This document shows, piece after piece, positions 10,048 to 17,488 of a stretch of DNA of 64,000 nucleotides. How positions within the stretch are numbered: the first letter of the stretch is position 1; each line of letters starts with the position of its first letter. A model generated the notes under the pieces. The model saw only the letters and a list, made by a program, of their open reading frames with translations, ran no database searches and was not told where the DNA came from. This DNA is from Flavobacterium celericrescens (lineage in GTDB: Bacteria; Bacteroidota; Bacteroidia; Flavobacteriales; Flavobacteriaceae). The position numbers and the translations under genes are program-made. The stretch lies in assembly GCF_011392075.1 (NCBI RefSeq), contig NZ_JAAJBV010000002.1, positions 124,001 to 188,000 on the forward strand, read 5' to 3'.

Positions 10048-11160
10048 TTATTTTATTGCATCAGCAAGGTTTATTTTTATTCCATCTTTATAAGCAACAA
10101 TATAAGCCGATGAGTAGCCTTTTTTCTTAGCTTCATCTAATCTTTTTTTAGCCTCTTCATATTGTGTTTCCATACCATAAAAATACTTGAACAATTTACC
10201 TGAAGTTTCAACTGAAATAGGTTTTAATCCTTTAAAATTTTGCGGAACCGTTTTTAATTTTTTTGAACTTGCAGCAATTTGAACTTTATACACAATTCCT
10301 TTATTAGATTGCTTTTCAACAGGTTTTGATTGTTCTTTCTCTACTGGTTTTTCCTCAGAAGTTGTTTTAACTGGCTCTTTCTCTTTAACCTCAGGTTCTT
10401 TTGAAGGGTTAAAAAACTCTTTTTTGTATTCTAAAATTGCTCCTGAAATTGCTTCAGCTAATTTGTCTTGACCAGATTCTGAATTTAAAAAAGCGCCTTC
10501 TTCTTTATTGGAAACAAATCCCATTTCAATTAAAACGCGCGGCATGGTAATTTGTCTTAACACCAGAAATCCTGCCTGCTTAACTCCTCTATTTTTGTTA
10601 CTGGTTTTTTTAGTAAAAAATTGCTGTACATTTCCAGCCAATTCAATGCTTTGGTCTAAATATTCTTCTTGTAAAATAGAAATTCCAATTACTGATTCCG
10701 GAGATTTTGGGTCAAAACCATCATATTTTACTTTATAATCAGATTCCAGAGTAACTACTTCATTTTCAGCTTTTGCCACTTCTAAATTGGAGGCATTTCT
10801 TGTAATTCCCATTACATAAGTTTCATTTCCAGATGCGGCTTCGCTTTTATTTGCATTACAATGCATGGAAACAAAAATACTTCCTTTTGATTTATTGGCA
10901 ATTTTTGCTCTTTGTTGCAATTCTATAAAAACATCTGTCTGCCTAGTGTAAACCACTTCAATTTGCGGATCCTTTTCTAAAATAGCCCCTACTTTTAAAA
11001 CGGTTTTTAGTGCAATATTTTTTTCAATATTTCCATGATAAACAGCACCATAATCTTTTCCACCATGGCCTGCATCTAAAACTACTTTAAATTTTGTGGT
11101 TTGACCAAAACCAAACGCAACAGTAAGAACTACAAGAAATGTGGCTATTTTATGTATCAT
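10048..11160 (-). CDS. N-acetylmuramoyl-L-alanine amidase with SPOR-like C-terminus (copy 2)
   Basis: A 370-residue periplasmic amidase that cleaves the MurNAc-L-Ala bond of peptidoglycan. It has a signal peptide (ending FGFGQ), then an Amidase_3 domain with the zinc ligands in LDAGHGGKDYGA (His, residue 32 region), the Glu of HGNIEKNIALK, VSMHCNANKSE (His near residue 100) and VLIEMGFVSN (Glu near 212). A Lys/Glu/Pro-rich linker (residues 255-290) leads to a SPOR-like end with YKVQIAASSKKL and FKYFYG. It is 5 bp from a tandem paralog (11166-12260). The paralogs share architecture but differ mainly in the linker. Confidence 0.92.
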   Translation of the reverse strand: MIHKIATFLVVLTVAFGFGQTTKFKVVLDAGHGGKDYGAVYHGNIEKNIALKTVLKVGAILEKDPQIEVVYTRQTDVFIELQQRAKIANKSKGSIFVSMHCNANKSEAASGNETYVMGITRNASNLEVAKAENEVVTLESDYKVKYDGFDPKSPESVIGISILQEEYLDQSIELAGNVQQFFTKKTSNKNRGVKQAGFLVLRQITMPRVLIEMGFVSNKEEGAFLNSESGQDKLAEAISGAILEYKKEFFNPSKEPEVKEKEPVKTTSEEKPVEKEQSKPVEKQSNKGIVYKVQIAASSKKLKTVPQNFKGLKPISVETSGKLFKYFYGMETQYEEAKKRLDEAKKKGYSSAYIVAYKDGIKINLADAIK

Positions 11161-11165
11161 ATTTG

Positions 11166-12260
11166 TTATTTATTCTCAAAAGTTACAATATAAGCCGATT
11201 TATAACCTTTCTTTTTTGCTTCTTCTAACAATTTTTTGCATGCTTCATAATCGGTTTCATCTCCATAAAAATATTTGTACAACTTATTCTCGTGAGTGTA
11301 TGAAATATTTTTTAATCCTTTAAAATTTGCTGGTTTTGTATCTATTAGTTTGGTTCCTGCTTCAAGTTGCACTTTATAATGAGTTGTTTTATCACTATTA
11401 ACCACAACATTATTCTCTGTTGGAATAGTATTCTCTGGAGCTACAATTAGTTCATCCTGAACATCAAGAGGTAATGCTACTTCTGAAGGGCTGAAAAAAG
11501 TATTTTTATAGGCTATAATTGAATTTGCAATAGACTGTGCCAATTCTGCTTTACCTTCTTCTGAACTTAAATATTTTGCTTCTTCAGGATTAGAAACAAA
11601 CCCTAATTCAATCAAAACGCCTGGCATTACAGTTGCATCTAAAACCCATAGTGGTTGTTGGTGTACACCTTTGTCTTTTCGGTTTAACTTTGTTTTAAAA
11701 CCATCTTGAATTAAACTTGCTAATTCAATACTTTGAAGCAATGATTCTTCTTGCATAATTTTTAATCCTATTAATGTTTCAGGATTGTTTGGATCAAAGC
11801 CTTTATATTTTGTTTTATAATCTGCTTCTTGAAAAATTACAGCATTTTCTGTTTTTGCTATTTCTAAATTAGTTCCTGTTCTCGACATTCCCATTACTAA
11901 AGTCATTGAACCATATGGCACAGCAGTTGTCGTTGAATTACAATGTACAGAAACAAATAAATTCGCTTTCGCACGATTAGCAATATTTGCACGCTCTCTT
12001 AATTCGATAAAAACATCTGTTTTTCGGGTGTAAACAAGAGCAACATCATTATAAGCTTCTAATAATTTACCTACTCTTAGCACTACATCTAATGCAATTT
12101 CTTTTTCTTTAAGACCGTTTTTCATGGCTCCTGGATCTTTTCCACCATGACCAGCGTCTAAAACTACTTTAAATTGATTAGAACTTTGTCCAAAATTTGG
12201 AATAAAAGCAAATAATAAAACTGCTAATAGGATATATTTGATAGTGTTTTTATAGATCAT
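11166..12260 (-). CDS. N-acetylmuramoyl-L-alanine amidase with SPOR-like C-terminus (copy 1)
   Basis: A 364-residue periplasmic Amidase_3 enzyme, the first gene of the leftward run that continues with copy 2 and the MCE gene. A signal peptide is followed by LDAGHGGKDPGAM (zinc His), GLKEKEIALDV (Glu), VSVHCNSTT (His) and VLIELGFVSN (catalytic Glu). The tail (YKVQLEAGTKLI, YKYFYGDETD, KSAYIVTFENK) resembles a SPOR-type glycan-binding domain. It starts at ATG 12260, 71 bp from the divergent lptD start, so the intergenic space holds both promoters. The role is probably daughter-cell separation or cell-wall turnover. Confidence 0.92.
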   Translation of the reverse strand: MIYKNTIKYILLAVLLFAFIPNFGQSSNQFKVVLDAGHGGKDPGAMKNGLKEKEIALDVVLRVGKLLEAYNDVALVYTRKTDVFIELRERANIANRAKANLFVSVHCNSTTTAVPYGSMTLVMGMSRTGTNLEIAKTENAVIFQEADYKTKYKGFDPNNPETLIGLKIMQEESLLQSIELASLIQDGFKTKLNRKDKGVHQQPLWVLDATVMPGVLIELGFVSNPEEAKYLSSEEGKAELAQSIANSIIAYKNTFFSPSEVALPLDVQDELIVAPENTIPTENNVVVNSDKTTHYKVQLEAGTKLIDTKPANFKGLKNISYTHENKLYKYFYGDETDYEACKKLLEEAKKKGYKSAYIVTFENK

Positions 12261-15478: not shown

Positions 15479-15614
15479 AACGTAATTCTTTAAGCTGTAA
15501 CTATTTTTTCTTATTTTTGGTAAAAGCTACTTTATGGCGTCAAGCTACCCAATTTTGGGTGTATAAGCTAATGTTTGTAGCCCATATATATAAGTTGTGC
15601 GTAATTTTAAAAAA

Positions 15615-15989
15615 ATGATAGACGAAATATATTCTCATTGTATACAAAATGATAGATATGGATTTACAATTCCATATTTATATAAGATTGAAAAAGACAA
15701 TAATCGTGAAAAATCTATCGAAGAAATTTTAGAATATTTATCAAAATCTGAAGCGTTTTACATTATATCAAAATGTAATGATCTCGATGAATATATCATT
15801 GGATTACACAAAAAAGAATATGCCCCAATATCTTATTATGCTCACTTTAATAATTTACTTTATGATCAGGAGGTCTTAGGTTTTTTTGAGTCTTTTCAAG
15901 AGTTATCTTCTTTCTTAACTAAAGAATATCAAAAATACATAGACAAAGGGCAATATTCAAAAAACATAGAAACTTTAAATTGGGAATAA
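15615..15989 (+). CDS. Small protein of unknown function in cassette-like module 1
   Basis: A 124-residue cytosolic protein starting MIDEIYSHCIQNDRYGFTIP. A GTG at 15597 is also in frame but lies within the terminal repeat of the module; the ATG at 15615 is preferred. The sequence is rich in Tyr, Ile, Lys and Glu (KSIEEILEYLSKSEAFYIIS), predicted alpha/beta, without a signal peptide or a catalytic motif I recognise. Its stop codon TAA shares its last A with the ATG of the next gene, so translation of the two is probably coupled. An adaptor, immunity or defence-related role would be a guess from context only. Confidence 0.6.
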   Translation: MIDEIYSHCIQNDRYGFTIPYLYKIEKDNNREKSIEEILEYLSKSEAFYIISKCNDLDEYIIGLHKKEYAPISYYAHFNNLLYDQEVLGFFESFQELSSFLTKEYQKYIDKGQYSKNIETLNWE

Positions 15990-16435
15990 TGGATATCAAA
16001 TTTTGGACAGCAATATATGCAGCAATAATTTCTACTATAGTTTTTATTTGGCGACTTTATGAATTTTATTATGATAGAAGAGGAAAATTTACTGTTGAAT
16101 TAAGAAATATTCATAGAACACCTGTAATTAACTTTAAGGTTGGAGATAGTGTTAGCTATCTTGTAATAAAAATCACTAATGTTGGTAAAAATAAAAGATT
16201 TATTGAAGAGCCTAGTTTTGAAAGTAATTCAAAACAGAAGAAACATTTCAACTTATTAAAATTAGACAAAAAAGAAAACTACCCCATAGCTTTAGAACCT
16301 GGCGAAATTCATGAATATTCAGTTGAATTTGAGACCTTAAAAAATGAATTATCTGAATTTGATATTACAAAAATTAAAGCTCTTGTCTTTGACACTCAAA
16401 AAAATACTTACAAATCAAATTGGTTTAATCTATAG
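15989..16435 (+). CDS. Single-pass membrane protein of unknown function in module 1
   Basis: A 148-residue protein starting MDIKFWTAIYAAIISTIVFI, whose first 25 residues form one membrane anchor, followed by a basic RLYEFYYDRRGK stretch and a soluble beta-rich domain (residues 35-140). The ATG at 15989 overlaps the previous stop by one base; a TTG at 15980 is the less likely alternative. The soluble part, with LVIKITNVGKNKRFIEEPSFE and LEPGEIHEYSVEFETL, looks like an immunoglobulin-like beta sandwich. The stop lies six bases before the terminal repeat of the module. Family not recognised. Confidence 0.6.
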   Translation: MDIKFWTAIYAAIISTIVFIWRLYEFYYDRRGKFTVELRNIHRTPVINFKVGDSVSYLVIKITNVGKNKRFIEEPSFESNSKQKKHFNLLKLDKKENYPIALEPGEIHEYSVEFETLKNELSEFDITKIKALVFDTQKNTYKSNWFNL

Positions 16436-16441
16436 AAAAAC

Positions 16442-16609
16442 TACGCACAACAGCGGTTTTGTGCAAGCGTGGTTTTGGGGATTTATCGGTAATGGTAAGT
16501 GTTTGCACTTCTCTCCTATTTTTCAATATTTTCTTTCAAACTTTTCGGTATATTTGTAAACGTCAGTAATAAAAATCCCCGCCTGACACAAAGCCGGCGG
16601 GACGTTAGC
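16442..16609 (+). repeat. attC-like recombination site 1 (long imperfect hairpin)
   Basis: The site runs from TACGCACAAC (16442-16451) to GTTAGC (16604-16609). Two nested arms pair: GGTTTTGTG (16455-16463) with CACAAAGCC (16587-16595), one G-T pair, and GGGGATTT (16477-16484) with AAATCCCC (16573-16580). The outer 7-mers GCACAAC and GTTAGC correspond in place and partly in sequence to the attC core boxes RYYYAAC and GTTRRRY. The size, about 170 bp, is at the large end for attC. The complementarity is seen directly; calling it attC-like is inference. Confidence 0.55.
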
Positions 16610-16635
16610 GGTAAGACTTGGGAACATTACGTTAA

Positions 16636-17001
16636 ATGGAAACAATAAAAAAATTTTCAATCAACAAAGATTTCAATTCACTAAACTTTCTCGAAAATTT
16701 AGCGAAAAAATTTGATTTGTATCTTATTGGAGATTTTGAGGTTGAGCCTTTCACAAAATGGTCAATGGAATTTGCTTCAGAATATTGGTATCTAAATTAT
16801 CACTTATTAAAAAAAGGAGAAGTAAGACTTGGAAATCAAGATTCTGAATTAAAATTTTTATTTCAAGAATCCAATTTGAATATTATTTGGCTAACCGTTA
16901 CAGACAAGAAAAATTTTGAATTAAAATGCGTCGATGGAAGTTGGGAAGTGAAAGTTTTAAATCCAAATTTTGATAGATTGCAAGAATTATTAAATATTTA
17001 A
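16636..17001 (+). CDS. Small protein of unknown function in cassette-like module 2
   Basis: A 121-residue protein starting METIKKFSINKDFNSLNFLE and ending RLQELLNI. It is probably a small alpha/beta cytosolic protein: aromatic-rich strands (WSMEFASEYWYLNYHLL, LNIIWLTVTDKKNFELKC) and no signal peptide or membrane segment. The gene is flanked by its own terminal inverted repeat, GGTAAGACTT (16610-16619) and AAGACTTACC (17001-17010), 9 of 10 paired; the second copy begins on the last base of the stop codon. Such tight packing is typical of gene cassettes. Family not recognised. Confidence 0.55.
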   Translation: METIKKFSINKDFNSLNFLENLAKKFDLYLIGDFEVEPFTKWSMEFASEYWYLNYHLLKKGEVRLGNQDSELKFLFQESNLNIIWLTVTDKKNFELKCVDGSWEVKVLNPNFDRLQELLNI

Positions 17002-17054
17002 AGACTTACCACAATAGTTTACTTCAATGCCTACTTCCGTATTTCCCAACGGAA
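17001..17054 (+). repeat. Terminal repeat and degenerate attC-like end of module 2
   Basis: AAGACTTACC (17001-17010) is the complement of GGTAAGACTT at 16610, with one mismatch. CACAATAG follows where GCTAAC would be expected. TTCCGT (17035-17040) pairs with ACGGAA (17049-17054). The rest of the gap up to mgsA shows no further structure that I can see. Confidence 0.45.
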
Positions 17055-17116
17055 AATCCTCTACTGAATGTAATTCTTTGATGTCGGTTCAACACCAGAG
17101 AAAGAAAGCTGTAAAA

Positions 17117-17488
17117 CTACACCTCATCCAAGCCTAATAACAATAACTGTGCAGTAGCTTCGTTGGTGGCTAGAGGCACGTTGTGTACGTCACAAATTCT
17201 GATTAGCATATTGATATCCGCTTCGTGTGGATGGCTTGAGTTGGGGTCTTTAAAAAACAATACCATTTTCGTTTTTCCAACCGCTACTCTGGCCGCAATT
17301 TGCGCATCACCGCCTAAAGGTCCCGACAACATTTTTTTTACTTTGAATCCAGCTGCTTCTGCTCTTCCACCTGTAGTTCCTGTGGCAATAATTTTAATGT
17401 TTTCTTTTAAAAGCAAGGCTTTGTTTTTGTTTAAAAACTGTACCATATCTGCTTTTTTTCCGTCGTGGGCAATGATTGCTATTTCCAT
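17117..17488 (-). CDS. mgsA: Methylglyoxal synthase
   Basis: A 123-residue enzyme that converts dihydroxyacetone phosphate to methylglyoxal and phosphate, a bypass of lower glycolysis. Signature elements are AHDGKKADMVQF at the N-terminus, ATGTTGGRAEAAGFKV (phosphate-binding GTTGG), SGPLGGDAQIAARVA with the catalytic Asp, and DPNSSHPHEADINMLIRICD with the conserved His and Asp. It lies next to a sugar kinase, gapA and pfkA, so the region groups genes around triose phosphates. A terminator stands between it and the sugar kinase gene, so it is probably transcribed separately. Confidence 0.95.
   Translation of the reverse strand: MEIAIIAHDGKKADMVQFLNKNKALLLKENIKIIATGTTGGRAEAAGFKVKKMLSGPLGGDAQIAARVAVGKTKMVLFFKDPNSSHPHEADINMLIRICDVHNVPLATNEATAQLLLLGLDEV

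Follow-up and report, generated by a model that had tools for sequence, protein, structure and literature searches.

The ridA-mgsA locus of Flavobacterium celericrescens

The window analysed here is a stretch of 64 kb from Flavobacterium celericrescens (genome G000, C2:124001-188000). At 15594-17117 it holds two adjoining modules that we read as gene cassettes, the first with an intact terminal site and the second with a decayed one (Table 1). As an earlier sequence-only reading of the window had stated, their genes lie on one strand and have no recognised family: all three ORFs are on the + strand and none scores above the Pfam curated cut-off. No homologue of ORF1 or ORF3 was found at E<=1e-8 in the 120 other genomes of the genus that were sampled (ORF2 was outside this search), and the cassettes of the window are therefore unseen elsewhere. 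A weak PADLOC match of ORF3 to Csx19 (E 0.0088) is probably due to chance, and neither this match nor MOV-10, a weak lead of the Pfam scan among the window ORFs, was used. At 10048-12260 of the window, two adjacent genes resemble, by reading, paralogous cell-wall amidases.

Table 1. Features of the two putative cassettes (window coordinates)
Feature	Position	Strand	Basis
Left junction CATATATATAA^GTT, attI-like or secondary insertion site, without hairpin	15583..15593	+	Sequence
Gene cassette 1 including its site	15594..16603	+	Sequence and repeat scan; boundary rule taken from array comparisons
Start arm of cassette 1, private, 15 nt, A at position 11	15594..15608	+	Sequence, repeat scan
ORF1, 124 aa, no family	15615..15989	+	ORF list, Pfam scan, genus homologue search
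ORF2, 148 aa, likely N-terminal membrane helix (by reading), Pfam match sub-threshold only	15989..16435	+	ORF list, Pfam scan
End arm of cassette 1, private, R''-like	16437..16451	+	Sequence, repeat scan
attC-like hairpin site of cassette 1 and start of cassette 2	16437..16618	+	Sequence, fold, repeat scan
Inner arm of hairpin, L''-like	16453..16462	+	By reading, on the plan of the covarying inner arm
Inner arm of hairpin, L'-like, one extra G	16588..16598	+	By reading on the same plan; fold
Gene cassette 2, terminal site decayed	16604..17117	+	Sequence, repeat scan
ORF3, 121 aa, no Pfam family	16636..17001	+	ORF list, Pfam, PADLOC, genus homologue search
Decayed site of cassette 2, its end touching the mgsA stop codon	17017..17117	+	Alignable to the commonest own-array site type

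The private terminal repeats and the joining hairpin that the same reading had described are all present: GTTGTGCGTA (15594) and TACGCACAAC (16442-16451) match exactly over 10 bp in cassette 1, GGTAAGACTT (16610) and AAGACTTACC (17001-17010) match at 9 of 10 in cassette 2, and the 168-bp stretch 16442-16609 forms an imperfect hairpin. When the bottom strand was folded, as had been proposed, with the own ends of cassette 1 joined, it gave -27.7 kcal/mol against -24.1 kcal/mol for the top strand. The arms of cassette 1 pair beyond these 10 bp (GTTGTGCGTA-A-TTTT against AAAA-C-TACGCACAAC, 14 of 15 positions), the sole mismatch being an A.C at position 11. This is the only private repeat with 11/11 matches and an ACGTT junction on the + strand of the whole 64 kb; ten plain shuffles gave none at 11/11 and a mean of 0.3 at 10, and the single minus-strand row of the scan is the same repeat read backwards.

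Cassette 2 starts with the GTT at 16604 and does not follow the A.C rule, its mismatch lying at position 13. Its end is decayed (AAT for AAC, one core base lost), and 17017-17117 differs from the commonest site of the array in the same genome by many changes and a deletion. Since its site is decayed, cassette 2 is probably no longer able to move. Three sites had been counted in the window, of which one stands as an intact site, whereas the others are this decayed site and the left junction, which has no hairpin. By eye, the left junction weakly resembles catacatataagcta^GTT and cgcatataaatga^GTT, found beside recombinases, and tatttacta^GTT of the own-genome array.

Besides the locus of G000, the 30 mgsA loci analysed include 15 that hold ridA next to mgsA and 14 that stop short of ridA, and nine of the 15 were read. 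The two genes are separated by about 24-28 bp in G319 and G392 and by about 160 bp in G410 and G375. Another gene each is present in G321 and G310, with a decayed site of cassette type, and in G364 and G412, with no visible site, while G417 has a long stretch in which no site was recognised. In the six loci outside this reading, the genes nearly touch in four and lie about 0.6 and 1.0 kb apart in the other two. By reading of its start, the gene of G364 (locus L068, no visible site) resembles one for a DUF4062 protein. The cassette reading would have failed had the locus been fixed with the same genes in all relatives; instead it is empty or holds different genes. As the contents of the interval vary among the relatives read, the ridA-mgsA spot takes up different genes.

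Cassette arrays in the same genome and in relatives

The modules had been described as cassettes without an integrase. A candidate integrase is encoded outside the window, 63 kb to its left (G000:C2:59584-61326), as a tyrosine recombinase of 580 aa. Behind it and on the same strand are 19 motif-matching sites, the first cassette starting 45 nt behind the recombinase at tatttacta^GTTGTACAAC (by reading). Further sites of this genome are found at C2:36-56 kb, at C2:103 kb and on C8, and parts of both window sites recur elsewhere in the genome. No Rfam family was matched at gathering score in 58000 bases from four site loci of this genome (the window not included). One cassette site of the own array (L010:15813-15890) is only about 62 nt long, much shorter than those of its neighbours. 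In addition, a solitary cassette is present at about C2:202.8 kb (L012:4794-5610), with a left junction, TTGATGGTATTTAATA^GTT, close to TTGATGATATTTACTA^GTT of the own array and a hairpin centre that matches window 16507-16604 at 83%. In the relative G370, a recombinase of 349 aa is followed by 233 sites, all on one strand, over 177 kb (C1:3075980-3252609), and 189 of these sites have a length of 125 nt.

The private pairing of cassette ends is a rule of these arrays. Across the 232 cassettes of G370, the start of a cassette agrees with its own end in 0.64-0.96 of cases at positions 4-10 and 12-15. At freely varying positions, agreement is 0.64-0.91 between the ends of one cassette and 0.26-0.42 when the ends come from different cassettes; positions 4 and 8 hardly vary, and different cassettes agree there in 0.83 and 0.90. 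Agreement drops to 0.026 at position 11, where the start has A in 228 and the end C in 218 cassettes, and is at background or lower from position 16 onward. Similar values were obtained for 133 cassettes from 15 stretches of nine genomes including G000, with 0.62-0.93 at positions 4-10 and 12-15 against 0.31-0.65 in the control, and 0.03 at position 11 (A in 130, C in 112). Partners were swapped in the control, base composition thereby being kept, and intervals of more than 2.6 kb between sites are omitted from the 133-cassette set. The site pattern fixes positions 1-3 of the cassette ends, and the letters AAC, TTT, AAG and ACGTT are not evidence because the pattern imposes them. The arms pair poorly in some arrays, with means of 5.9 of 11 in G379 (8 cassettes), 7.4 in G410 and 7.7 in G364_C1, the remaining arrays having means of 8.5-11 of 11. 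As far as sequence comparison can establish it, cassettes stand head to tail behind a tyrosine recombinase, each starting with GTT and a private tail and ending with the private complement and a hairpin site that closes with AC before the next GTT.

The inner arm of the hairpin covaries, positions 2, 3, 8, 9 and 10 pairing in 0.84-0.94 of 138 sites against 0.30-0.61 with shuffled partners. These 138 are the sites with a 7-nt gap outside G370 among 367 distinct ones; ten have another gap and the rest belong to G370. For folding, the end of a cassette, the site and the cassette's own start were joined as in a circle and both strands were folded with DNA parameters, the set being restricted to cassettes whose arms match at 9 or more of 11 positions (100 of the 133 outside G370 and 60 random ones of G370). 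By calculated energy, the bottom strand is the more stable in 158 of 160, with means of -30.5 against -25.8 for the top strand and -12.9 for plain base shuffles of 60 sequences. On the bottom strand the A.C becomes a G.T, so that the long arm continues through position 11; beyond it come an unpaired spacer and an inner stem, which has a single mismatch in the examples shown. An equivalent plan with other lengths is given for the folded bottom strand of attC sites (PMC2727003). A single-strand hairpin with the bottom strand favoured, an unpaired spacer and an interrupted stem is what defines an attC-type fold, and all are met here, the extrahelical bases of canonical attC corresponding to a 1x1 mismatch in these cassette sites.

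Distribution of sites and linkage to the recombinase

Sites of the same architecture were expected to recur next to variable genes in related genomes, and they do: the motif is present in 69 of 121 genomes of the genus (5 matches in total for a reversed-pattern control), and the sites adjoin variable genes wherever arrays were read. An initial loose pattern gave counts outside the genus on the order of the reversed control, and a tighter pattern was adopted for this reason. It matches in 59 of 395 Bacteroidota genomes, some of which have only coding-like matches as judged by eye, and still yields chance matches (7 with the reversed control in the 395 genomes). The recombinase is found in 71 of the 395 at E<=1e-55. 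Within the genus, at least three sites are present in 18 of 22 genomes with the recombinase at E<=1e-60 against 27 of 99 without it (Fisher 3e-6), and 49 of these 99 have motif sites. The test and the association counts treat related genomes as independent, and the threshold of 1e-60 misses at least the recombinases of G370 and G416.

Among 12 loci chosen for holding the recombinase, it lies upstream of the sites and on the same strand in 10, at about 0.5-9.9 kb from the first site; the two exceptions are a locus at a contig edge and one whose covered stretch contains no site. Within 25 kb of a recombinase, at least 24 sites across the phylum (15 genomes) are downstream on the same strand and at least two, at distances of 12 and 21 kb, are upstream on the opposite strand, with none in other arrangements. 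These counts are lower bounds, as they rest on 41 of 78 recombinase entries and on 58 of the site entries, only 2 of them for G000. Moreover, 80 named recombinase loci, mostly of Bacteroidota with two labelled Neomarinimicrobiota, have 26 motif sites downstream on the same strand, 5 upstream on the opposite strand and none in either other arrangement, the corresponding numbers of private repeats being 36, 2, 0 and 0; one shuffle of the downstream parts gave neither motif sites nor private repeats. Downstream sequence is shorter than 1.5 kb in sixteen of these loci, and of the other 64 only 8 carry a motif site there; the motif was derived from the genus Flavobacterium, and a few named loci carry private repeats without it. 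Tandem cassettes next to a recombinase, a criterion for integrons, are thus present. Seven loci (L111, L112, L113, L115, L117, L140 and L141) have a site or repeat on the other side of the recombinase, pointing away from it, which is the usual arrangement in integrons, and the five motif sites among them are at 0.8 to 7.6 kb from the recombinase. A few loci share left junctions of the tatatttgaga^GTT kind, which are attI candidates with no function shown. The attI finder chose a later cassette or nothing in most of 27 loci, and the five with a non-site left flank were used together with readings by eye.

Recombinase family and N-terminal domain

Membership in XerC, XerD or XerA was not met, the recombinases of G000 and G370 scoring below the NCBIfam cut-off of every family listed. 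The best matches are TIGR02249 for G000 (208.8, cut-off 265) and the XerA model for G370 (194.1, cut-off 220). For a named relative (L098), residues 72-350 of the predicted structure (mean pLDDT 82.9, pTM 0.51) match recombinases that include XerA and IntI4, with Z 22.5 and rmsd 12.5 over 266 aligned residues for XerA 5hxy, and Z 20.9 and rmsd 7.0 over 264 for IntI4 2a3v. The enzymes are alike to XerA/XerC in sequence and in the predicted fold of the core and catalytic domains, and differ from them in their linkage to cassette arrays and in an N-terminal extension. This extension is about 60-70 aa long (about 290 aa in G000), with W38, W45, D49 and R54 invariant in 16 sequences. Pfam DUF5710 was matched by 10 of the 16 at E up to 10, the best being 8.4e-6. 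The HARP domain of SMARCAL1 was the top hit, yet a weak one (Foldseek E 0.62, HMM E 0.19). With VIA-align 2, no match of the N-terminal domain reached Z 5, SMARCAL1 HARP was absent from the best 50 matches, and XPB gave Z 2.9-3.4. The domain may be HARP-like, which is a lead only; HARP is a domain type that binds branched DNA.

Movement of cassettes

Seven of the 25 similar cassette pairs listed were examined. Six consist of whole cassettes with 96-100% identity: G000_C2-2 and G000_C2c-3 (508/521 identical), G000_C2-14 and G364_C1-1 (793/808), G000_C2b-1 and G364_C13-19 (671/699), G416-2 and G416-30 (534/534), G416-3 and G416-14 (447/447), and G364_C1-2 and G364_C1-4 (616/616). In these six, identity starts at GTT and stops between AC and the following GTT; both flanks are unrelated in four pairs and one flank in two. 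Over the 120 bases to either side, agreement in these pairs is 0.38-0.53, with the exception of the flanks upstream of G000_C2b-1 (0.89) and G416-3 (0.80), where the upstream neighbour seems to carry a similar site. In the remaining pair (G364_C13-8 and G321_166-4) the cassettes are of unequal length, with an agreement of 0.889. At the level of sequence, these comparisons establish that individual cassettes have been transferred intact between arrays and between species, the breakpoints falling between AC and GTT, and the movement of cassettes as units, a further criterion for integrons, is met by genome comparison.

Relation to integrons

We consider it highly likely that both modules of the window belong, as gene cassettes, to an integron-like system found in Bacteroidota with an integrase and a site type of its own; no recombination has been tested. 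Such a system collects genes, as do the integrons by which antibiotic resistance spreads, with recombination sites and an enzyme other than those that define integrons. The recurrence of the sites in relatives and the variable locus support the integron-like reading first made from the window. The recombinase, whose activity is inferred, would excise a cassette as a circle and insert it by a crossover beside GTT, its substrate presumably being, by analogy with integrons, the bottom strand of the site in folded form. That the two ends of a cassette keep pairing may be due to their forming a single site once the cassette is circular. Both window cassettes would have been inserted between ridA and mgsA, away from the array, at an attI-like secondary site, the left junction resembling attI only loosely.

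A CALIN, the degraded remnant of a canonical integron whose IntI has since been lost, would follow the same logic of array, hairpin and private ends, and the IntegronFinder 2.0 survey mentions earlier In0 elements in Bacteroidetes and one complete Salinibacter integron (PMC9024848). This origin is nevertheless very unlikely. The best match of TIGR02249 is the array recombinase itself in five of five genomes, none over the cut-off, and model positions of about 182-236 are unmatched in all five, the alignment being split at about 176-181/237-242; a phmmer alignment to IntI4 2a3v is split at 177/247. We take this gap to be the position of the extra domain of IntI, on our own reading of the 2a3v alignment. 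The TIGR02249 test has no positive control, the 14 control genomes containing no integron. Canonical attC cores have the consensus RYYYAAC and GTTRRRY, which are matched by 4 and 2 of 389 sites, respectively, and never both together. With the IntI insertion absent from its recombinase and GTTRRRY fitted by 2 of 389 sites, the system is, by the tests run, neither a canonical integron nor a member of the IntI integron family. The additional domain is required for the activity of IntI (PMC9668308).

Exchange between cassettes might also need no site-specific enzyme today, homologous recombination between repeated sites shuffling the genes: near-identical sites within a genome permit unequal exchange, and the upstream flanks are 0.80-0.89 alike in two of the seven pairs. 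We hold this, too, to be very unlikely, given that cassettes 2 and 30 of G416 are identical throughout and yet agree at only 0.53 over the 120 bases upstream, and that G000_C2-2 and G000_C2c-3 agree at 0.53 upstream and lie on opposite contig strands. The least credible explanation is that dispersed hairpin repeats (MITE-, REP- or IS200/IS605-like) separate small genes by chance and that transposons move the genes. Hairpin repeats of this kind are intergenic, and the rve transposase core is matched by three of the 93 sampled cassette proteins, but the private 15-nt pairing of the ends of each gene, the single orientation over 233 sites and the recombinase at the head of the array are left unexplained.

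The integron-like system that we favour has its nearest counterpart in sedentary chromosomal integrons of the Vibrio superintegron type, with which it shares tandem cassettes in one orientation, complementary cassette-specific ends, bottom-strand hairpins, a tyrosine recombinase at the head, a very long array in one genome and diverse cargo. It differs from them in a recombinase that lacks the IntI insertion and has an extra N-terminal domain, and in cores that are not RYYYAAC/GTTRRRY; the recombinase reads toward the array in most loci read, some having sites on the other side. Integrons are defined by IntI and its insertion. The arm here is 15 nt long with a fixed mismatch at position 11, against 9-11 complementary nt in attC (PMC2727003). 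For the insertion-less members of the integron-like subgroup of simple tyrosine recombinases, no cassette arrays are described in the accessible part of PMC8138268. Among the papers listed in a literature search that excluded preprints and most subscription journals, none describes comparable arrays in Flavobacterium or elsewhere in Bacteroidota.

More tentatively, and short of what we would call probable, the arrays could represent a second kind of integron, Bacteroidota-wide and able to accumulate over 200 cassettes in one array. Its recombinase, lacking the IntI insertion, would read folded DNA through a 15-nt arm with a fixed A.C (G.T on the bottom strand) and through its N-terminal domain, maybe HARP-like. 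If the same logic is indeed served by another enzyme and site type, cassette platforms would have originated or diversified repeatedly, Bacteroidota would offer a large reservoir of unread cassettes, and a natural test would become available of the features that let a recombinase act on folded single-strand DNA. A survey with the standard tool lists few integrons in Bacteroidota (PMC9024848).

Cassette cargo

The arrays may carry phage defence. Among the 232 cassettes of G370, ORFs of at least 50 aa run along the array in 167 and against it in 16, and 49 have none. A sample of 93 cassette proteins (19 from G000 and 74 from G370) matches 41 Pfam families, and most of the 25 families listed are matched by one protein. 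The G370 part comprises 74 of 90 preselected ORFs (every second one), the omitted ones being mainly short or on the reverse strand. One cassette protein of the G000 and G370 set matches the HEC-01A defence model at 1.6e-137. One member is also matched by each of the models AriA, AbiLi, Old and GajA; this may be the same ATPase every time.
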